Origin: Caldilineaceae bacterium | GTDB lineage: Bacteria > Chloroflexota > Anaerolineae > Caldilineales > Caldilineaceae | Assembly (NCBI GenBank): GCA_015494005.1 | Contig: WGCB01000740.1 | Coordinates: forward strand, 1-16,573 | Length of the DNA: 16,573 nt | Direction: 5' to 3' | Shown here: positions 1,752 to 16,573 of the stretch, piece after piece | Layout: every line of letters begins with the position of its first letter | Numbering within the stretch: the first letter of the stretch is position 1 | Made by a program: the position numbers and the translations under genes | Notes under the pieces: model-generated | The model's input: only the letters and a program-made list of their open reading frames with translations | The model's database searches: none | What the model was told of the DNA's origin: nothing

Positions 1752-4682
1752 CTAGAGGTGCTCCTGGATCAGGGCCAGGATATCCTTCTCCCGGAAGGCC
1801 TGGGCCAGCTCCCGGAGGCGCTGGGCGAAGGGCCCGTAGGCGGGATCCAGGGCAGCCAGGCGATCCGCATGCTCCCGGATGGGGCGCATCATGCCCCGCT
1901 GGGCCAGCTCCAACAGGACAGCGAGCTCGTCGGCCGGAGGGATGACCAGGGTCGGCGCCTCTGGGGAGGGGACGCGAGCGCCGTTGCGGCGACCTGGGCC
2001 AGGATCAGGCGGATCCTCCGCCTGGTCCGCGTCGATCCACTGGATGCCCAGATGGCGCTCCAGGAGGGCGAAGAGCTCGGCCATCTGCACCGGCTTGGCC
2101 AGGAACCCGTCACAGCCGGCGGCGCGGCTGGCTTCCCGGTCCCGCTCGAAGGCGCTGGCCGAGGCGGCGATGATCACGATGTCCGCCTGGGAGCCATCTC
2201 CGGTGGAGCCTCTCCCTCGGGCCGCCTGCTCCCGGATGGCCCGGGTGGCCTCCAGACCGTTCATCCCCTCCATGCGCAGGTCCATGAAGACCAGATCGGG
2301 CCGGTGTCTCTTGGCCAAGCGGATGGCCTCTTCCCCAGTGGCCGCCTCCAGGGTGCGGAAGCCCAGGGGCGCCAGCAGGTCCACGATGAGACTGCGGTTG
2401 TGCAGGTTGTCGTCCACAGTGAGGATGGTGCGCCGTCGGCCCTGGTAGCCCACGATGGCCCGGCGGCGGCGAGGCGGCTTCCGCCGGGGCGCCTGGAGCT
2501 CCATGGGCAGGGTGAGGTCAAACCAGAAGATGCTGCCCTCCCCTGGGCGGCTCTTCACCTGGATCTCGCTGCCCATGATGCGGGCCAGGTTCTGGCTGAT
2601 GGCCAGGCCCAGGCCAGTCCCTTTGTTGCGCTGCCGGGGCTCGCCCAGCTGCTCGAAGGGGCGGAAGATGTCCCGGATGGCCTTGGGGCTCAGCCCCACG
2701 CCCGTGTCCTGCACCGCGAAGCGCAGGGTCACCGTGGGGGCCTGGCCGGGCTGGTAGAGGGTGGCTGCCTCTCCCACAGGGACTAGGTCCTGGCGGGTGA
2801 CCCGGAAAGTGACTGTGCCTTGCTCCGTGTAGCGGATGGCGTTGCTGAGCAGGTTGATGAGGATCTGGCGCAGTCGCTTCTCGTCCACTCGGACGGTGTA
2901 GGGTAGCTCCGGGGAGACCTGGTAGACGAAGTCCAGTCGGTTCTGGTTGGCTCGGAAGCGGAAAGTATTGGCCAGATTCTCCAGGAAGTCGGGCAGGTCC
3001 ACCGGGGTGGGGTAGAGCTCCATCTTCTGAGCTTCGATCTTGGTCATGTCCAGGATATCGTTGATCAGAGTGAGCAGGTGCTCGCCACTCTGCTGGATGA
3101 TGGTCAGGCCGTTGACCTGCTGTGGCGTCAGGTCCCCGCTCTTGCCCAGGATCTGGGTGTAGCCCAGGATGCCGTTCAGGGGAGTGCGCAGTTCGTGGCT
3201 CATGTAGGAGAGGAACTCGCTCTTGGCCCGGTTCGCCGCCTCTGCCTTCTCTCGGGCGATCTGGGCGGCCCGGTTGGCCCGGATCAGCTCCTGGGTGCGC
3301 TCATCCACCCGCTGCTCCAGAGAACCGATGAGCCCTCGCAGCTGCTCGGCCATGCTGTTGAAGGCGATGCCCAACTGCCCCACCTCGTCCTGGGAGCTGA
3401 CCGAGACCACGTGGTTCAGATCGCCCCGGGAGACCCGCTCCACCCCGTCCATCAGGGCGCGCAGGGGCCGATTGAGCAGGTAGGAGAGGATGAGGTAGAT
3501 GAGCAGCCCGGCCAAGAGCACCATGAACACGGCCAGCTGGATGATCTGGCGGCGCAGGGCATTGGTGGGTCCGGCCAGCTCGGAGACCGGGCTGAGGACC
3601 ACGGCCTGGAGGCCTGTCTCCTGCCCACCAAAGGCGATCTCTTTCCAGGCATAGTTGAAGGCGCTGGAACCGATGGCCACCGTCTCTTCCTGGCCAATGC
3701 GCTGCACCTCCTGGCCGCGGCCCGGGCTGGGTAGGCTCGTCACCAGAAGCTGGCCATCCTGGGCCAGGGCCACATCCAGGCCCAGCTGGCTCGAGAGGGC
3801 GCCCACCGCCGGGCCGTCCAGGTACTGCTTGATCTGGACGATCCCCACAGGCACCAAGGCCTCCTCCCAGGTCTCGGGATGAGCCATGGCCGCGTGGACG
3901 GGGTACCAGGTGCGGATCACCGGCGTGCCCCCCTCCAGGATCAGCTCCGAGACGGGCCGCTCCACCTCCCGCCACTCCCCGGGGAAGTCAGCCACCACTC
4001 CCGGCTCGTCGGCCAGGACGAAGTGGTTCTCCCGGTAGAAATCCTCGGGCGGAAAGGCGTAGGCCGAGCTGATGTCGAAGTAGTCCGGGGCGGGGGGACG
4101 GAACTCCTGGGTGGCGATGGTGTAGAAGCGGGGCTGGCTGGCGTCCCCTTTGCGCTGAAACTGGCTGAGGACGATGCGGTCCCGCTCCAGGAGGAAGGCG
4201 GGAACCGGCGGCGCGTCGGGCACGATGTCGAAGGGGGAGAGGTGGTAGAAAGCGATGGTGGAGAAGTTGTTCAGCTGCTGCATGGGGAGCAGGAGCTGGA
4301 GCAGCTTCAGCTGGGATTGGAAGACGTAGATCTTGTCCGCGTCCTCGATCTCGCCGCCCAGGCCCTGGAAGTCCGCGGGGAAGTAGGAGCCCGGGTCCGC
4401 GTAGTAGGGCCCCCGGTCGGTGAGGAGCTGAAGCTCAGCCACGATGGGCTCGCTACCGTCGAAGCGCAGGGCGGCCAGGGCCGCGTTCCGCTCCATCTGG
4501 GCGATTTGGCTCACCAGGATCTGGGAGGTGCGGTTGAGCTCCGCCTGCTTGACCTGGGTCAGGTTGTCGAAGCTGGTGGCGCCGATGAGGGCGGCCAGCC
4601 CAGCGGTGAAGAGGATGAAGACCACACCCACGATGAGCAGGATCTTGGTGCCGATGCCGATGCGCATGAGGTTCAGGTTCAT
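1752..4682 (-). CDS. Membrane-bound hybrid sensor histidine kinase
   Basis: This 976-residue protein has a membrane helix at about 12-35, a roughly 340-residue extracytoplasmic sensor region (Cache/CHASE-like in size; exact family not assigned) and a second helix at about 380-402. Then follow HAMP (about 403-455), a coiled coil, HisKA with phospho-accepting H496 in SHELRTPLNG, and HATPase with N614 (LLSNAIRYT), D659 (DTGVGL) and GTGLGLAI. A receiver domain has D757/D758, phospho-acceptor D801 and K863. A helical tail of about 100 residues contains no visible Hpt histidine. The ATG at 4682 is two bases after the stop of the upstream binding protein and has a GGGAGG site. Longer upstream starts would overlap that gene. 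The tight coupling suggests that the binding protein presents ligand to this kinase. Its receiver likely passes phosphate to, or tunes, the divergent regulators. Confidence 0.93.
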   Translation of the reverse strand: MNLNLMRIGIGTKILLIVGVVFILFTAGLAALIGATSFDNLTQVKQAELNRTSQILVSQIAQMERNAALAALRFDGSEPIVAELQLLTDRGPYYADPGSYFPADFQGLGGEIEDADKIYVFQSQLKLLQLLLPMQQLNNFSTIAFYHLSPFDIVPDAPPVPAFLLERDRIVLSQFQRKGDASQPRFYTIATQEFRPPAPDYFDISSAYAFPPEDFYRENHFVLADEPGVVADFPGEWREVERPVSELILEGGTPVIRTWYPVHAAMAHPETWEEALVPVGIVQIKQYLDGPAVGALSSQLGLDVALAQDGQLLVTSLPSPGRGQEVQRIGQEETVAIGSSAFNYAWKEIAFGGQETGLQAVVLSPVSELAGPTNALRRQIIQLAVFMVLLAGLLIYLILSYLLNRPLRALMDGVERVSRGDLNHVVSVSSQDEVGQLGIAFNSMAEQLRGLIGSLEQRVDERTQELIRANRAAQIAREKAEAANRAKSEFLSYMSHELRTPLNGILGYTQILGKSGDLTPQQVNGLTIIQQSGEHLLTLINDILDMTKIEAQKMELYPTPVDLPDFLENLANTFRFRANQNRLDFVYQVSPELPYTVRVDEKRLRQILINLLSNAIRYTEQGTVTFRVTRQDLVPVGEAATLYQPGQAPTVTLRFAVQDTGVGLSPKAIRDIFRPFEQLGEPRQRNKGTGLGLAISQNLARIMGSEIQVKSRPGEGSIFWFDLTLPMELQAPRRKPPRRRRAIVGYQGRRRTILTVDDNLHNRSLIVDLLAPLGFRTLEAATGEEAIRLAKRHRPDLVFMDLRMEGMNGLEATRAIREQAARGRGSTGDGSQADIVIIAASASAFERDREASRAAGCDGFLAKPVQMAELFALLERHLGIQWIDADQAEDPPDPGPGRRNGARVPSPEAPTLVIPPADELAVLLELAQRGMMRPIREHADRLAALDPAYGPFAQRLRELAQAFREKDILALIQEHL

Positions 4683-4684
4683 AC

Positions 4685-6490
4685 TCACTCTCCCTCCCCG
4701 GGGCGGGCCGGGGCCACCCAGCGAGCCAGCAGCTCGTCGTAGGGAATGGTCTCGGGCTGAGGACGAGGGCGGGGCGGCTTGGGCGCGCCAGGCTGGGCCA
4801 GCCAGTAGGAGGCTCCCCGGGCCGGGGCCAGGCGAGGGGAATAGCGGGCCATGCGCATGGCGAACATGGCGTCGTCCATGGCCTGGGCGATGGCGTCCAT
4901 GGCCTGCTGGGGCGTCACCTCCCCGTCGATGGCCCGGGCGATGTTGGGCCACCAGAGGGCGGAAAGGGCCGGGTAGTCGGGCACGTTGGGCCCAGTGTCG
5001 GTCCACTCCTTGCGGCTCTCCGAGCGGTAGAACTCGATGAGGCCGCCCCACCGCTGCCGGTGCTCCGTCACATAGTCCGCGAAGACCGTGGACTTGCGCA
5101 CCGGCGTGCCCCCCACCAGGAACTTCTCCAGGGAGACGGTCTTGGAGACCGCGAACTGGGCCCAGAGCCAGGCCATGGCCCGCCGCTGCCCCCGCACGTT
5201 CCGAGGGATGGTCCAACTGCCTGCGTCCTGGTAGCCCACCTTCATGCCCGGGTCCCAGTAGCGGCCGTGGGGCGTGGGCGCCACCCGCCACCGGGGATTG
5301 CCCTCCTCGTCCACCACCGGGCTACCGGGCTGGTGGAAGGCGTCATCCGAGAGCCAGGTGACGTACTGGAAGATGCGCTGGGCGATGTCTCCCCGGGCCG
5401 CCTGAGGGCCAGCATCCACCCAGCGCCAGCTCTTGGCCTCGGGCGGGGCATAGCGGTTGAGCCACTCCACGTACTTGGTCAGCGCGTAGACCGCGGCGGG
5501 GCCGTTCACCGCACCGCCCCGCTGGATGGAAGCCCCCACCGGAATGTTCGCCTCCACCCGGATGCCCCACTCATCCACCGGTTCGCCGTTGGGCAGCCCC
5601 ACATCCCCCACCCCAGCGATGGAGAGCCAGGCGTCGGTGAAGCGCCAGCCCAGAGAGGGAGATTTCTTGCCGTAGTCCAGGTGACCGTAGACAGTCTGGC
5701 CGTCGATCTCCCGGCCGGTGAAGAAGGCCGCGATGTCCTCGTAGGCGGCCCAGTTCAGGGGCACGCCCAGCTCGTAGCCGTACTCCGCCCGGAAGGCCTC
5801 CTGGATGGCCGGGTCCGTGAACCAGTCGTAGCGGAACCAGTAGAGGTTCACGAACTGCTGATCCGGCAACTGGAGCTGGTTGCCCTCGTAGTCCTGGCCG
5901 AACTCCAGGTTGAGGAAATCGTCCAGGTCCAGTCCGGGGTTGGTGAAGGGGCGGCCTGGCCCGTCCATGTAGGCGGAGAGGTTGACCACCCCCTGGCTGC
6001 GCAGATGAGTGCCCACCATATCCGCGTCGTTGACATAGATGTCGTAGAGGATGCGGCCTGTGCGCTGCTGTTCCACCATGCGCTCCACCACCGAGCCTTC
6101 GCCGATCACCTCGTGCTCCACCTGGATGCCGGTGATCTCCTGGAAGGCCTGGGTCAACACATCCCGCTCCCAGTAGTGGGTCTTGATGTCCTCGGCCACG
6201 GAGCGGATGCGCCGTCCTCGGAAAGGGGCGGCGGCCTGGGCAAACCAGCGCAGCTCCGCGATGCGCTCCTCCTCGTTGAGGACGGAGCGATCGAAGTAGC
6301 GGGCCCACTTGCGGATGGCCGCTTCCGTGGCCGGGTCCAGCGAGGGCTCGGAAGTGGCCTCCGCGCTGGGATCGGTGGGTTCGTCCTGGGGTGGGAGAGC
6401 CGCCCAGGCCTGTCCGCCAGGCAGATTGAACCAGACCAGGCACCAGGCCAGGAAAATTGTCAACAGGTTGGTCCAAGGCTTGGAAAGCAT
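4685..6490 (-). CDS. Secreted solute-binding protein homologue, probable sensor partner of the kinase
   Basis: This 601-residue protein is a GlpV-like extracellular solute-binding protein and an evident paralogue of the transport binding protein at 13284-15119. Shared blocks include VNLYWFRYDWFTDP (from about residue 213), YGYELGVP, SLGWRFTDAWLS, PVDEWGIR and GYQDAGSWT. The signal peptide is non-lipoprotein: MLSKPW, a hydrophobic core, then AWA with cleavage near residue 30; no lipobox Cys is seen. The C-terminal half is more diverged and ends in a Pro/Arg-rich stretch. It is in an operon with the histidine kinase rather than with permeases, so I infer a sensing role like ChvE-VirA or TorT-TorS. 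No clear Shine-Dalgarno precedes ATG 6490, so the transcript may be short-leadered. A transport role cannot be excluded. Confidence 0.9.
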   Translation of the reverse strand: MLSKPWTNLLTIFLAWCLVWFNLPGGQAWAALPPQDEPTDPSAEATSEPSLDPATEAAIRKWARYFDRSVLNEEERIAELRWFAQAAAPFRGRRIRSVAEDIKTHYWERDVLTQAFQEITGIQVEHEVIGEGSVVERMVEQQRTGRILYDIYVNDADMVGTHLRSQGVVNLSAYMDGPGRPFTNPGLDLDDFLNLEFGQDYEGNQLQLPDQQFVNLYWFRYDWFTDPAIQEAFRAEYGYELGVPLNWAAYEDIAAFFTGREIDGQTVYGHLDYGKKSPSLGWRFTDAWLSIAGVGDVGLPNGEPVDEWGIRVEANIPVGASIQRGGAVNGPAAVYALTKYVEWLNRYAPPEAKSWRWVDAGPQAARGDIAQRIFQYVTWLSDDAFHQPGSPVVDEEGNPRWRVAPTPHGRYWDPGMKVGYQDAGSWTIPRNVRGQRRAMAWLWAQFAVSKTVSLEKFLVGGTPVRKSTVFADYVTEHRQRWGGLIEFYRSESRKEWTDTGPNVPDYPALSALWWPNIARAIDGEVTPQQAMDAIAQAMDDAMFAMRMARYSPRLAPARGASYWLAQPGAPKPPRPRPQPETIPYDELLARWVAPARPGEGE

Positions 6491-6493
6491 GGT

Positions 6494-6523
6494 ATAGTAC
6501 TAGCCCATGTGTGTGCAGCTCAA
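6494..6523 (-). promoter_or_regulatory. Possible promoter for the sensor operon
   Basis: On the minus strand TTGAGC (6523-6518) is followed after 18 bases by TACTAT (6499-6494). The start site predicted from this box would fall at or just inside ATG 6490, so either transcription is leaderless or the true -10 is shifted upstream. This is a weak assignment by eye. Confidence 0.25.
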
Positions 6524-6651
6524 TGCGGTGGAAGAAAAGTGGGGGAGCAGCCTCTCGGCCGACAGAGGGCGAGTCCAGGGATGCTATCCGAAAGCGGCGT
6601 GGGGGAGGCACAGGCCATGCCGCCGGCCTTCTCGATAGCGGGGAGCGATTC

Positions 6652-6695
6652 CCTTGTCCACCGAAATATAATTCAAATGCGTCTCCTTGTCCACC
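6652..6695 (+). promoter_or_regulatory. Promoter -10 flanked by an 11-bp direct repeat
   Basis: CCTTGTCCACC occurs at 6652-6662 and again at 6685-6695, a 33-base period (about three helical turns). A perfect TATAAT lies between them at 6667-6672. No good -35 is visible at 17 bases, as is common for activator-dependent promoters. The second copy lies downstream of the predicted start point and overlaps a possible TTG start codon. The arrangement fits a regulator binding both sides of the promoter of the receiver-kinase gene. The rest of the divergent region 6491-6716 shows no gene. Confidence 0.45.
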
Positions 6696-6716
6696 AGCCG
6701 CGAACAGCCAACCGCC

Positions 6717-7919
6717 ATGAACCGAGAAAACCAGCAGCTCAACTATCAGGACCACACCATCCTCATCGTGGACGACTCGCCGGCCAACCTGGGCGTCGTC
6801 TTTGATTTCCTGGACGGCCTGGGCTTCACCATCATGGTGGCCCAGGACGGGGAGAGCAGCCTGGAGAAGGTCCAGTTCGCCTTGCCGGACATCATCCTCC
6901 TGGATGCGCTCATGCCCGGGCTGGATGGCTTCCAGGTCTGCCGCCGTCTGAAGGAGGACCCGACTACTCGGGACATCCCCGTCATCTTCATGACCGGCCT
7001 GAGCAGCATCGAGGACAAGATCCGGGGCTTCGAGGCCGGCGCCGTGGACTACGTGACCAAGCCGGTCCAGGAGGAGGAGCTGCTGGCCCGGGTGGTCACC
7101 CACCTGCGTCTGCGCAAGCTGACCCAGAACCTGCAGCGGACCAACGAACGGCTCCAGCAGGAGATCCAGGCTCGCATGCGCTCCGAGGCAGCCCTGGCCG
7201 AATACCGGGACCAGCTGGAGGCCCAGGTGCAGCGCCGCACCGCGGAGCTCTTCCAGGCCAACCGGCGGCTCCAAGAGCTGACCGCCCGGGTCACGGAGAT
7301 CGAGGAGACGGAGCGCCGTCGCTTGGGCCGGGAGCTCCACGACCGGGTGGGTCAGGACCTGGGCCTCCTGAACATCAACCTGAACATCGTCCAGAACGGG
7401 CTGCCGCCCCAGGTGGATCCAGCCCTACGCACCCGGCTGGAGGACTCTCTGGCCCTCATCGAACAGGTGGCCGCCCAAGTCTACGATGTGATGGCCGAGC
7501 TGCGCTCCCCGGTGCTGGACGACTACGGCCTGGTGGCGGCCTTGAAATGGTACGGCGCCCACTTCTCCACCCGCACGGGCATCCCGGTGCGGGTGCGGGG
7601 CGTGGAGGATGGCCCCCGCTTCTCCCTGGCCACAGAGAGCGCCCTCTTCCGCATCGCCCAGGAGGCCTTGACCAACGTGGCCAAGCACGCCCAGGCCAGC
7701 CAGGTGACCGTGACCGTGGAGCAGGAAGCCGGCCGGGTGCGCCTCTGCATTGTGGACGACGGCGTGGGCTTCGATCCGTCCGCCCCGGCCCTGCCCCAGA
7801 ACGGCCAAGGCTGGGGGCTCATCTCCATGACCGAGCGGGCTGAGGCCATCGGCGGCCGCTGCACCATCCAGACCGGGGCCAACCGAGGCACCCAGGTGAC
7901 AGTGGAGGCGCCGGCATGA
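6717..7919 (+). CDS. Soluble receiver domain-histidine kinase (NarL-type)
   Basis: This 400-residue cytoplasmic protein has no membrane segment. Residues 12-130 are a CheY-like receiver with D19/D20, phospho-acceptor D63 (LLDALMPGLDGF) and K115. A coiled coil runs from about 132 to 195. HisKA_3 follows with H208 in the RRRLGRELHDRVGQ motif, then a HATPase with EALTNVAKHA, DDGVGFDP and a Gly-rich lid (GWGLISMTERAEAIGG). A receiver in front of a kinase means phosphate or a docking signal from another kinase can control it; the hybrid kinase encoded divergently is the obvious candidate. I prefer ATG 6717 because the in-frame TTG at 6687 lies inside a repeated DNA element; neither start has a good ribosome site. 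The stop overlaps the next gene by 4 bases (ATGA). Confidence 0.92.
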   Translation: MNRENQQLNYQDHTILIVDDSPANLGVVFDFLDGLGFTIMVAQDGESSLEKVQFALPDIILLDALMPGLDGFQVCRRLKEDPTTRDIPVIFMTGLSSIEDKIRGFEAGAVDYVTKPVQEEELLARVVTHLRLRKLTQNLQRTNERLQQEIQARMRSEAALAEYRDQLEAQVQRRTAELFQANRRLQELTARVTEIEETERRRLGRELHDRVGQDLGLLNINLNIVQNGLPPQVDPALRTRLEDSLALIEQVAAQVYDVMAELRSPVLDDYGLVAALKWYGAHFSTRTGIPVRVRGVEDGPRFSLATESALFRIAQEALTNVAKHAQASQVTVTVEQEAGRVRLCIVDDGVGFDPSAPALPQNGQGWGLISMTERAEAIGGRCTIQTGANRGTQVTVEAPA

Positions 7920-8566
7920 TCCGGGTGCTCCTGGCCGACGACCACGCGGTCCTGCGGGATGGGGTGCGCCTGCTCCTGGAGATGGACCCGGCCATCCAGG
8001 TGGTGGGAGATGCGGCGGACGGCCGAGAGGCCGTGCAGAAAACCCGGGAGCTGCAGCCGGACGTGGCCATCCTGGACATCCTCATGGCCGAGCTCAACGG
8101 CATCGAGGCGGCCCGGCAGATCGTGGCGGAAAATCCCGCCACCCGGGTGATCATCCTCTCCATGAACGCCAACTCCGAATACATCTTCCGGGCCCTGCAG
8201 GCCGGGGTGAGCGGCTATCTGCTCAAGGCCTCGGCTGGCTCCGAGGTGGTGCAGGCCGTGCATGCGGTCCACGCCGGAGGACGTTACCTGAGCCAGGCCA
8301 TCTCCGACACGGTGATCACCGAGTACATCGCCCAGCGAGAGGCCACGGAGAAGGACAACCGGCTCCTGCGCCTGACCGCCCGGGAGCGAGAGGTCCTGCA
8401 GCTGGTGGTGGAAGGCCGCTCCAACGTGGAGATCGCCCAGCGGCTGACCATCGCTCCGGGCTCGGTGAAGACCTACCGCAAGCGCATCATGCAGAAGCTG
8501 GACATCCACGACCTGCCCGGCCTGGTCAAGTTCGCCATCCGCCACGGCATCACCCCGCTGGAATAG
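7916..8566 (+). CDS. NarL/FixJ-family response regulator
   Basis: This 216-residue DNA-binding regulator has an N-terminal receiver with D8/D9, phospho-acceptor D54 (AILDILM) and a Lys in YLLKAS. After a linker at about 130-148 comes a LuxR-type helix-turn-helix: LTAREREVLQLVVEGRSN, then EIAQRLTIAPGSVKTYRKRIMQKL. Family members dimerise and bind DNA when phosphorylated, usually activating transcription. It overlaps the receiver-kinase gene by 4 bases, so that kinase is its likely phosphodonor. The importer genes begin 180 bases downstream on the same strand and are the natural target; repeats in that gap are candidate binding sites. The target assignment is inference. Confidence 0.94.
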   Translation: MIRVLLADDHAVLRDGVRLLLEMDPAIQVVGDAADGREAVQKTRELQPDVAILDILMAELNGIEAARQIVAENPATRVIILSMNANSEYIFRALQAGVSGYLLKASAGSEVVQAVHAVHAGGRYLSQAISDTVITEYIAQREATEKDNRLLRLTAREREVLQLVVEGRSNVEIAQRLTIAPGSVKTYRKRIMQKLDIHDLPGLVKFAIRHGITPLE

Positions 8567-13283: not shown

Positions 13284-15119
13284 ATGAAACGTTCGAAATT
13301 TGTGCGGTTGAGGTTTGTCACGCTGAGCCTCCTGATCGTCTTCAGCTTGGTGCTGGCCGCCTGTGGTGGATCCCCGGCCCAGCCCAGCGGCGAAGGCGCG
13401 GCAGAGAGTGGCGGCGCGGAGAGCAGCGCACCGGCGCCAGCGGCCTCCGACTTCGACGAGGCCGCGGCCATGGCCGCCGCGGAGCGCTGGATCGACGAGG
13501 AATTCCAGCCCAGCACCCTGAGCCGGGAGGAACAGCTGGCGGAGATGGAGTGGTTCATCAAGGCCGCGGCCCCCTACCGGGGCATGGACATCAACGTGGT
13601 CTCCGAGACCATCACCACCCACCAGTACGAGTCCCAGGTGATGGCCAAAGCCTTCAGCGAGATCACGGGCATCAACGTCACCCACGACCTGATCCAGGAA
13701 GGGGACGTCATCGAGAAGCTCCAGACCCAGTTCCAGTCGGGCCAGAACATCTACGACGCCTACGTCAACGACTCGGACCTGATCGGCACCCACTTCCGCT
13801 ACGGCTTCGTGGTGCCCCTCTCCGACTACATGGCCGGGGAAGGCAAGGACGTGACCCTACCCACCCTGGACGTAGACGACTTCATCGGCAAGAGCTTCAC
13901 CACCGCGCCGGACGGCAAGATGTACCAGCTGCCGGACCAACAGTTCGCCAACCTCTACTGGTTCCGCTACGACTGGTTCACGGACCCGGACATCAAGGCC
14001 CAGTTCAAGGAGATCTACGGCTACGAGCTGGGTGTGCCCGTGAACTGGAGCGCCTACGAGGACATCGCCAACTTCTTCACCAACGAAGTGAACGGTGACG
14101 GCACCATCGACGGCGTGAAGGTCTACGGCCACATGGACTACGGCAAGAAGGATCCCTCCCTGGGCTGGCGCTTCACCGACGCCTGGCTCTCCATGGCCGG
14201 CACCGGCGACGAGGGCATCCCCAACGGCGTGCCCGTGGACGAGTGGGGCATCCGCGCGGAGAACTGCGTGCCCGTGGGCTCCTCGGTGACCCGGGGCGGC
14301 GCCACCAACGCTCCCTCCGCAGTCTACGCGCTGGACAAGTACATCGAGTGGCTGAAGCAGTACGCCCCCGCGGACGCGGCCGGCATGACCTTCTCCGAAG
14401 CGGGGCCGGTTCCGGCCCAGGGCGCCATCGCCCAGCAGATCTTCTGGTACACCGCCTTCACCGCGGACATGACCAAGCCTGGCCTGCCCGTGGTCAACGA
14501 GGACGGCACGCCCAAGTGGCGCATGGCCCCTAGCCCCCACGGCGCCTACTGGCGGGAAGGCATGAAGCTGGGCTACCAGGACGCCGGTTCCTGGACCCTG
14601 CTCAAGAGCACCCCCGCGGACCGGCGAGCCGCGGCCTGGCTCTACGCCCAGTTCACCGTGGCCAAGAGCACATCTCTGAAGAAGTCCATCGTGGGTCTGA
14701 CGTTCATCCGGGATTCGGACATCCGCCATGATTATTTCACGGAGAACGCGGCCAAGTACGGTGGCCTGGTGGAGTTCTACCGCTCCCCGGCTCGCGTCCA
14801 GTGGACCCCCACGGGCGTGAACGTGCCCGACTACCCCAAGCTGGCTCAGCTCTGGTGGCAGAACGTGGCCCCGGCCATCACCGGCGAGGTGACCTCCCAG
14901 CAGGCCATGGACAACCTGGCCGCGGCCCAGGATGAGGTGCTGAGCCGCCTGGAGCGCATCGGCCTCAACGAGTGCTCGCCCAAGCTGAACGAGGAGCGGG
15001 ATGCCCAGTACTGGTTCGACCAGCCGGGCGCGCCCTTCCCCAAGCTGGCGGACGAGCGGGGTACGCCGGAGACCATCGACTACGATACCCTGCTGCAAAC
15101 CTGGCAGGACAGCCAGTAG
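13284..15119 (+). CDS. glpV: ABC importer solute-binding lipoprotein, GlpV-like
   Basis: This 611-residue extracellular binding protein has a lipoprotein signal: basic MKRSK-R-R, a hydrophobic core, lipobox LAAC with lipidated C27, then a Gly/Ser/Ala/Pro linker to about residue 55. The mature domain begins AAAERWIDEEFQPSTLSREEQ and carries family blocks ASDFDE, YVNDSDLIGTH, LPDQQFANLYWF (from residue 216), HMDYGKKDPSLGWRF, PSPHGAYW and GYQDAGSWTL. Similar proteins of this length accompany rhizobial GlpSTPQ. A GGAGGAG site 7 bases before ATG 13284 is the strongest in the importer. This is the transport receptor, anchored outside the membrane. Substrate is probably a polyol or sugar, by family only. 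The paralogue at 4685-6490 serves the sensor kinase. Confidence 0.93.
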   Translation: MKRSKFVRLRFVTLSLLIVFSLVLAACGGSPAQPSGEGAAESGGAESSAPAPAASDFDEAAAMAAAERWIDEEFQPSTLSREEQLAEMEWFIKAAAPYRGMDINVVSETITTHQYESQVMAKAFSEITGINVTHDLIQEGDVIEKLQTQFQSGQNIYDAYVNDSDLIGTHFRYGFVVPLSDYMAGEGKDVTLPTLDVDDFIGKSFTTAPDGKMYQLPDQQFANLYWFRYDWFTDPDIKAQFKEIYGYELGVPVNWSAYEDIANFFTNEVNGDGTIDGVKVYGHMDYGKKDPSLGWRFTDAWLSMAGTGDEGIPNGVPVDEWGIRAENCVPVGSSVTRGGATNAPSAVYALDKYIEWLKQYAPADAAGMTFSEAGPVPAQGAIAQQIFWYTAFTADMTKPGLPVVNEDGTPKWRMAPSPHGAYWREGMKLGYQDAGSWTLLKSTPADRRAAAWLYAQFTVAKSTSLKKSIVGLTFIRDSDIRHDYFTENAAKYGGLVEFYRSPARVQWTPTGVNVPDYPKLAQLWWQNVAPAITGEVTSQQAMDNLAAAQDEVLSRLERIGLNECSPKLNEERDAQYWFDQPGAPFPKLADERGTPETIDYDTLLQTWQDSQ

Positions 15120-15330: not shown

Positions 15331-15350
15331 TTGAGCAACAGGTTGCTCAA
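15331..15350. repeat. 9-bp palindrome at the cassette junction
   Basis: TTGAGCAAC (15331-15339) and GTTGCTCAA (15342-15350) are complementary with only two bases between them. The right half overlaps the R' box of the attC site (GTTGAGC on the minus strand, 15351-15345). It lies exactly where the cassette joins the resident sequence. Confidence 0.6.
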
Positions 15351-15471
15351 CGACCTCGAGTTAAGCTGCGCCGGATGCAGCGGCGGGCCGCCGCGCACCC
15401 AAACCGTGGCCGACCAAAGTTACCCCAGCACGCGCCGAGCGGTAGGCGTCAGCTTGAATGAGTGGTTAGGC
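15345..15471 (-). other. attC: Integron attC recombination site (attC1)
   Basis: On the minus strand the site starts with R'' GCCTAAC (15471-15465) and ends with R' GTTGAGC (15351-15345), matching RYYYAAC and GTTRRRY. The inner boxes pair as AAGCTG-A-CGCC with GGCG-CAGCTT, leaving one unpaired A in L'', as in the aadA1 attC. The L'' side (TTCAAGCTGACGCC, next to R'') closely resembles the conserved stretch used for cassette-amplifying primers. About 127 bp long, within the normal attC range. Orientation puts the cassette gene at 15526-16167 directly upstream of its own site. Confidence 0.85.
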
Positions 15472-16224
15472 CGACTAGGCCTTTGGACAGGCGCCACCGC
15501 TCCGCATTGTACCACCGCACCCCTTTCACAAACCGGCAACCAATTCTACAAACGGTATAAGGTTCCCTCTGAATTTGACGTATTGAGGTGAGATGTAAAC
15601 GTATCTTCGGTCTTGGTTTTCGAGAAACATAAGAAACTCGACGGCGTTTTTCAATACAATTCTGGCATCCTCACGGCAAATCCTTGTTGGAAACAAGTTG
15701 ATGCCAAGTTGGCGTGTCTTTCGCTTCGCTTGGTCAAGCACCCTCCTAAATTTTCTGTCTCCGTAACCCTCCTCTAGCGCAGCAGAAATCAATTTCATTC
15801 CAACTTTCTCATCCCACGAAAACTTCGCCTCCCAGACATGATTGTGAGCAATTGCATCTCGCACAACGAATAGCTCTTCAATCTTGTCCTCAAAACCGGA
15901 ATTTGGGTAAATTGCACGCACAAAGTCCAGAGGCCTTTTCAGTGGCGTTTCGCCCCGAATATACTGTGTTCTGGCGACAGCTGACTCGACGAGTAACACC
16001 GTGAGGATAATGATTGCGGCAGAGTAGCCATTTTCCACAACCGAGGCCTGCACCTCATTTGGTCCCTTTGAGTCAAGAGACTCTAACGGTTCAAGCAGGC
16101 TGGCAATCGGACGCAAGTAATTGAATCCAATAATTGATACGTATTCTTGGGGTTCCTGCTCAACCATGCTCGGCTTCCGTGTTGCAAATGTAGGACACCA
16201 AGTGTCTCGCTGAAGGCGGCCCAA
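15351..16224 (-). mobile_element. Integron gene cassette carrying a HEPN-like gene
   Basis: The cassette spans between the recombination points of attC2 and attC1 (cut after the G of GTTRRRY), 874 bp: a 57-bp leader, one gene, 54 bp, then attC1. When circularised, its own TTGGGC would complete attC1 as GTTGGGC, which pairs better with R'' GCCTAAC than the present GTTGAGC does. This supports the boundaries. Base composition is clearly more AT-rich than that of the flanking genes. No integrase gene is in the window; given the orientation, attI would lie to the right. Confidence 0.75.
15526..16167 (-). CDS. Cassette-borne HEPN-like protein of unknown function
   Basis: This 213-residue protein starts at ATG 16167 with GGAAG 9 bases upstream; longer frames would run through attC2 and are implausible. 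It is helical in appearance, with a hydrophobic segment at about 49-65 (SAAIIILTVLLVESAVA), perhaps a buried helix rather than a membrane span. Residues 101-110 (VVRDAIAHNH) contain R103-x4-H108, the R-x4-6-H signature of HEPN domains, which are often RNases in toxin and defence systems. The C-terminal half is basic, then has LKNAVEFLMFLENQ and a Tyr-rich end. I cannot name its family. Being a cassette gene, it is likely mobile and expressed from its own or an upstream promoter. The HEPN call rests on one motif. Confidence 0.75.
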   Translation of the reverse strand: MVEQEPQEYVSIIGFNYLRPIASLLEPLESLDSKGPNEVQASVVENGYSAAIIILTVLLVESAVARTQYIRGETPLKRPLDFVRAIYPNSGFEDKIEELFVVRDAIAHNHVWEAKFSWDEKVGMKLISAALEEGYGDRKFRRVLDQAKRKTRQLGINLFPTRICREDARIVLKNAVEFLMFLENQDRRYVYISPQYVKFRGNLIPFVELVAGL

Positions 16225-16303
16225 CGGCGCTGTGGATGAGCCACGCCAGTGGAGCGGGGCGCACCTCGGCGCAACCGGCGACGGCTCCATCCACTGGTTG
16301 GGA
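16219..16303 (-). other. attC: Second integron attC recombination site (attC2)
   Basis: On the minus strand R'' is TCCCAAC (16303-16297; first base off consensus) and R' is GTTGGGC (16225-16219). The inner boxes pair as GTGGAT-G-GAGCC with GGCTC-ATCCAC, leaving one unpaired G in L'', the same side as in attC1. About 85 bp. It closes the upstream side of the HEPN-like cassette, so a preceding cassette or attI should lie to its right. No convincing gene for that cassette is visible before the window ends. Confidence 0.75.
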
Positions 16304-16556: not shown

Positions 16557-16573
16557 TTTTCATCGTATCATCC

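Follow-up and report, generated by a model that had tools for sequence, protein, structure and literature searches.

The Chloroflexi were named among the bearers of integrons in 2008 (PMC2426708) and in later papers (PMC8618304, PMC9668308), and a Chloroflexota bacterium figures among the carriers of an integron-linked sul4 module (PMC12772301). Among titles and the opening lines of abstracts, we found no account of such an integron in the Caldilineaceae. Clusters of attC sites without an integrase are termed CALINs (PMC8618304, PMC9668308, PMC9024848), and the report on IntegronFinder 2.0 points out that incomplete assemblies give spurious ones (PMC9024848). As for the proteins that such elements carry, one integron cassette family of HEPN proteins (PDB 3jrt) is listed from the Gammaproteobacteria, and a part in stress dormancy has been proposed for it; the RNase motif of HEPN proteins reads Rx4-6H, with a polar residue after the arginine (Anantharaman et al. 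2013, PMC3710099).

Here, we examine a 16,573-base stretch of DNA (the window), which is the complete contig C740 of a draft genome (4.17 Mb, 820 contigs, 87.86% complete). Towards its right end we observe two attC sites in the same orientation that enclose one complete single-gene cassette. This is a genuine integron-type mobile gene cassette with two recombination sites, cut off by the contig end, and we put at about 0.93 the probability that the element forms the distal end of a cassette array of a chromosomal integron, in a bacterium of the Chloroflexota and perhaps of the Caldilineaceae. The original prediction had read the locus as an integron cassette in a Chloroflexota chromosome with an attC on each side, and this core reading is supported both by a covariance model and by the lack of conservation of the segment among relatives. 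Its surprise at finding an integron in this phylum was misplaced, since such integrons are already in print (PMC2426708, PMC8618304) and IntI integrases occur in 12 of the 41 genomes that we searched.

Materials and Methods

The attC covariance model, R1, was built from 14 attC sites, all outside the window, which were aligned with their loops masked by N and given a structure of 19 pairs. Their sources were genomes of the host's family and class as well as loci coding for relatives of the cassette's protein product (the cargo); the training sites include those at L012 3283, L013 5833 and L014 6958, 7775 and 10413, and the sites at L012 745 (42.5 bits), 2198, 4043 and 4743 and at L014 5229 stayed outside the training set. 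As the training sites were picked by the same consensus scanner, R1 is independent of the window and not of the consensus, and its E-values are rough, coming from a short calibration. The relaxed scanner looks for R'' boxes of the form NYYYAAC and R' boxes of the form GTTRRRN with paired L arms. The 41 genomes searched for IntI comprise the window's own genome, 24 from its family and 16 from elsewhere in the class. The cargo alignment has 119 rows, namely the window protein and its 118 matches, one of which is identical to it.

Results

The features on which the argument turns are collected in Table 1.

Table 1. Positions of the cassette, its recombination sites and the neighbouring importer gene in the window.
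Feature	Position	Strand	Basis or remark
Substrate-binding protein of an ABC importer (glycerol type by names of relatives)	13284-15119	plus	PF01547
attC1, the cassette's own attC	15345-15471	minus	R1 38.8 bits, E 1.1e-10
attC1 boxes	R'' 15471-15465, L'' 15458-15445, L' 15372-15361, R' 15351-15345	minus	box location
Complete cassette, 874 bases	15351-16224	minus	box coordinates; first bases TT of R' (attC2), last base G of R' (attC1)
Cassette gene, 213 aa + stop	15526-16167	minus	family without a Pfam name; HEPN-like R[ND]xxxH motif (R103, H108); 118 database relatives
attC2, 3' end of the preceding cassette	16219-16303	minus	R1 30.8 bits, E 3.3e-8
attC2 boxes	R'' 16303-16297, L'' 16294-16277, L' 16247-16232, R' 16225-16219	minus	box location
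Tail upstream of attC2, 270 bases to the contig end	16304-16573	minus	no minus-strand ORF of at least 60 aa wholly inside

Recombination sites

Up to an E-value of 10, R1 finds exactly two matches in the window, attC1 and attC2, both on the minus strand. The original prediction had placed two equally oriented attC sites with R'', L'', L' and R' boxes between 15345 and 16303 and had proposed a covariance model of attC as the check on the contig; both sites do score, and the coordinates were correct. The structure behind R1 is itself well founded: two-sided changes occur in 11 of its 19 pairs across the 14 sites, and 93.8% of the cells of the alignment are paired as against 22.4-38.6% when the partners are slid by 1-3 columns.

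The relaxed scanner recovers the intervals of attC1 and attC2 given in Table 1 and no further sites in the window. A site turned up in 4 of 200 block-shuffled windows, with a mean of 0.04 entries each (each counted on both strands). With scores of 15.2 for attC1 and 16.6 for attC2, against 15.8 for the best shuffled site (1 of the 200 shuffles above attC1, none above attC2), the scanner alone is suggestive rather than decisive, because that best shuffle outscores attC1. The strict consensus recovers attC1 alone in the window, with no site in 100 shuffles; attC2 is missed because its R'' begins with T. When folded as free DNA, attC2 does better than 194 of 200 shuffles (z -2.22) and attC1 no better than shuffles (z -0.81; 42 of 200 as good). 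One might accordingly see in both sites nothing but chance inverted repeats resembling attC, given that the boxes are short, that one shuffled window in 200 exceeds attC1 on the simple scanner and that attC1 folds in an ordinary way; against R1 E-values of 1.1e-10 and 3.3e-8, and against a pair in one orientation around a low-GC gene whose relatives sit in arrays elsewhere, we consider the chance of this to be very small.

The anatomy of the sites agrees with their reading as attC. The inner arm of attC1 reads TT[C]AAGCTG[A]CGCC vs TTAAGCTGCGCC, with two extrahelical bases in L'', and that of attC2 reads GTGGAT[G]GAGCC[G]TCGCC vs GTGGATGAGCCACGCC, likewise with two extrahelical bases in L'' and with one mismatch; the single extrahelical base that had been claimed for each L'' was thus wrong. 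This architecture of the inner arms, read on the minus strand, is also present in the arrays of relatives. In attC1, two more bases are unpaired in the outer part of L', which balances the scanner's count of unpaired bases, so that the orientation of this site rests on its inner arm and on R1. The features that define an attC and an integron gene cassette are all present: the core boxes with paired arms, the extrahelical bases in L'' and a tandem of equally oriented sites with one gene between them. Both sites would be predicted to be recombined by IntI.

Searches outside the window gave little that resembles the two sites. Two strict attC patterns, in a search that would miss looser sites (attC2 itself lies outside the pattern), hit attC1 and five other places in the own genome, about as many as backward-read controls; we rejected these five as attC, as R1 gives each of them at most 6.9 bits. 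The next-best candidates that R1 scored in the own genome reached 11.8 and 11.5 bits, in a search without the power to exclude further attC sites, because 150 of the 3604 first-look candidates were scored and attC1 itself was missed. Compared by BLASTN with the own genome, attC1 finds itself and three short matches at E 0.09-0.17; compared with plasmids, it matches 107 records at E up to 10, none of them covering 80% of the query, and the most suggestive (its first 27 bases, 92.6% identical to a stretch at aac(6')-IIa, E 0.4) is a hint at most. Rfam gave three matches in the window, all below their gathering scores and none within the region of the attC sites and the cassette. The sites attC1 and attC2 are unlike each other, and no match of more than 9 bases is shared between them or with the sites of relatives, at the limits of a comparison that tested relatives only.

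The cassette

An integron integrase cuts its attC between the G and the TT of R', and between the two cut points lies the complete cassette of Table 1, with 57 bases before the start codon of its gene and 54 between the stop and attC1. Its single gene had been described as AT-richer, as indeed it is: its GC content is 46.3% vs 64.6% for the window, and its GC3 is 49% vs 89-92% in three host genes. Circularisation of the cassette had been expected to improve the pairing of R'' with R' in attC1; an improvement exists and is small, with 6 of 7 positions paired instead of the present 5. The database protein that is identical to the cassette product has 2,920 bases as its longest contig, a different contig from the window, and a second assembly of the cassette therefore seems to exist.

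Beyond attC2, the tail has a host-like GC content of 63%, and a promoter scan listed nothing in it. At the contig end (16510-16573) are short repeats, to which at least four further contigs of the own genome have weak matches at E below 0.01 (the best is 81% over 53 bases, on C466); these repeats may be the cause of the stop of the assembly at 16573.

The host locus

The cassette lies next to an importer locus, with attC1 lying 225 bases after the stop of the substrate-binding protein gene. The closest named relatives of this protein are from Caldilineaceae and Chloroflexi bacteria (78-86%), followed by Actinobacteria (Nonomuraea, about 79% over 93% of the length), and from the names of these relatives the host would be, by this indirect route, a member of the Chloroflexota, perhaps of the Caldilineaceae. 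In G012, a genome of another genus of the same family, the orthologue is 90% identical and uvrC follows 372 bases downstream. Between G012 and the window, the DNA is similar as far as the end of the importer gene and not beyond it, and the importer contig of G012 has no attC match. We considered this importer-uvrC junction as a clean empty site and rejected it, because the similarity ends with the importer gene and because, in the own genome, the uvrC match that ranks best, at 68% identity, is on contig C617, after tuf and apparent tRNA genes (by eye).

The rest of the contig contains a second substrate-binding-protein gene (4718-6373, minus strand), 56% identical over most of its length to the one beside the cassette, and G012 likewise has two such genes. 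Between the two importer loci are a hybrid sensor kinase (1755-5291, minus strand) and, on the plus strand, a response regulator-HisKA_3 kinase fusion (6687-7919) and a LuxR-type regulator (7916-8566). At 416-1239, also on the plus strand, an antitoxin-type regulator (PF07704, Rv0623-like) overlaps a PIN-domain gene, likely as a VapBC-type pair.

Relatives of the cargo gene

At an E-value of 0.01 or better, 118 proteins match the cargo; many come from contigs a few kb in length, and some from longer ones, the longest 1.4 Mb. Four of the loci are in named genomes, and attC sites adjoin the cargo relative in three of the four. L012 (Anaerolineales) is an array of 4.9 kb with five attC matches, one of which starts 20 bases after the cargo relative, and whose attC sites look alike (by eye). 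In the Chthoniobacterales, attC sites stand before (26.6 bits) and after (57.4 bits) the relative in L014, and before it (52.1 bits), with a weak one after it (17.4 bits, E 0.0072), in L013. R1 finds no attC up to E 1 in L015 (Zixiibacteriota).

A comparison with related genomes had been suggested for the segment, and it is not conserved among them: in two overlapping samples, of 298 genomes from the class and 400 from the phylum, the cargo gene was found in the own genome and in no other. At the limits used, neither plasmids nor phages yielded a match to the cargo, and the 36 stretches on viral contigs that fitted the pattern encode no relative of it.

That the cargo gene is in no other searched genome of the phylum, and that the array stands at the very end of a short draft contig, would also suit a chimeric or misbinned contig bearing the array end of another organism. 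Set against this are the host-like 63% GC of the tail beyond attC2, the short repeats that the tail shares with four contigs of the own genome at E below 0.01 (simple repeats, which may be common elsewhere) and the frequency of IntI in the family. We regard an artefact of this kind as improbable.

Integrase and assembly

The absence of an integrase from view, as first described, holds for the contig and for the whole draft genome, where no place reaches the curated cut-off of TIGR02249 (the best has 64.5 of 265 bits) and where the translated candidates resemble other tyrosine recombinases (by eye). Nor did we see an attI on the contig. The search for intI that had been proposed to the right of 16573 has no sequence to cover, the window being the whole contig. 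Among the 41 genomes, IntI exceeds the cut-off in 5 of 24 from the family and 7 of 16 from the rest of the class. Two of the matches over the cut-off, G025:C44:138-1079 and G004:C245:2-709, each have an internal stop (TAG and TGA, respectively). L028 (positions 2317-7903, in the same-family genome G014) has five strong and one weak attC matches on a contig that bears intI.

The element is either an integron truncated by the assembly or a small CALIN. A true CALIN, that is, a cluster of attC sites with no integrase in the cell, which arose when cassettes inserted off-site next to the importer gene or when intI was lost, is the main rival to the assembly-cut integron. Such an origin would accord with the draft genome having no place above the IntI cut-off and no further R1-supported site from the strict patterns, and the dissimilarity of attC1 and attC2, within its limits as a comparison of relatives only, suits cassettes of mixed origin. 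Against it, 270 bases separate attC2 from the contig end, the genome is 87.9% complete and broken into 820 contigs, and 8 of the 14 places with IntI over the cut-off in relatives are within 1 kb of a contig end. The assembly break is thus a plain explanation for the missing integrase, and we rate a true CALIN at somewhat below an even chance; it leaves the reading of the cassette unchanged and differs in the platform alone.

Predicted function of the cargo

Pfam, NCBIfam and PADLOC assign no family to the window protein. The motif R[NDH]xxxH is found in 118 of the 119 aligned sequences; E98, H108 and W112 are invariant in all 119, and H110 is present in 118. The family thus has the HEPN motif, Rx4-6H with a polar residue after the arginine. 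The assignment is made at the level of the motif, because the motif is present, yet there is no match to solved protein chains beyond two weak unrelated ones (E 0.6 and 0.81) and the profile match is weak, 1 of 30 family members matching PF09659, the Csm6 HEPN model, at E 0.046. On this footing, the cargo is probably a HEPN-type endoribonuclease, and as such it could perhaps act as a growth-slowing or phage-blocking stress factor. More tentatively, it would represent an undescribed family of integron-borne HEPN RNases that crosses phyla (Chloroflexota and Verrucomicrobiota at least), carried as a stand-alone single-gene cassette with no visible antitoxin and serving as a switch in stress or phage defence.

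Discussion

If the element behaved as known integrons do, the cassette would have been taken up in circular form by an IntI integrase, which would have worked on the folded bottom strand of attC, cut between the G and the TT in R' and inserted the circle at an attI or attC site. Since the cassettes read from right to left, the place of the integrase and of attI would be past the right end of the contig, unless they have been lost. Several observations count against the array reading: the draft genome has no integrase, no attI was seen, attC1 folds in an ordinary way, L015 is without attC and the tail shows no gene of a preceding cassette.

The locus is a well-supported further example of integrons in the Chloroflexota. 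IntI occurs in 12 of the 41 genomes from this part of the phylum, and for this reason the Proteobacteria-centred picture of integrons may owe much to sampling. Since integrases in these drafts are often at contig ends, caution is needed before a cassette that lacks an integrase is called a CALIN. With integrons already known in the phylum, what looks mildly new is the cargo, an unnamed and HEPN-type RNase-like protein family, which is borne by cassettes, is shared between phyla and has a specific, testable RNase motif.

Like the integron cassette HEPN family (PDB 3jrt), the cargo is borne by a cassette and has an Rx4H motif with a polar residue after the arginine; unlike that family, to which it has no sequence match, it comes from outside the Gammaproteobacteria that the paper lists (PMC3710099). 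If it is HEPN at all, the cargo family would so be a separate one. The window resembles described CALINs in having two attC sites within 4 kb and no integrase in sight, and differs from them in that the missing integrase may here stem from the contig end (PMC9024848). It differs from the chromosomal arrays L012 (Anaerolineales) and L028 (G014) in having one complete cassette and neither integrase nor attI on its contig, and from L012 also in that its two attC sites are dissimilar, those of L012 being similar by eye. With both of these arrays it shares the attC boxes, the extrahelical bases of the inner arms, the single orientation of the sites and the single-gene cassettes.
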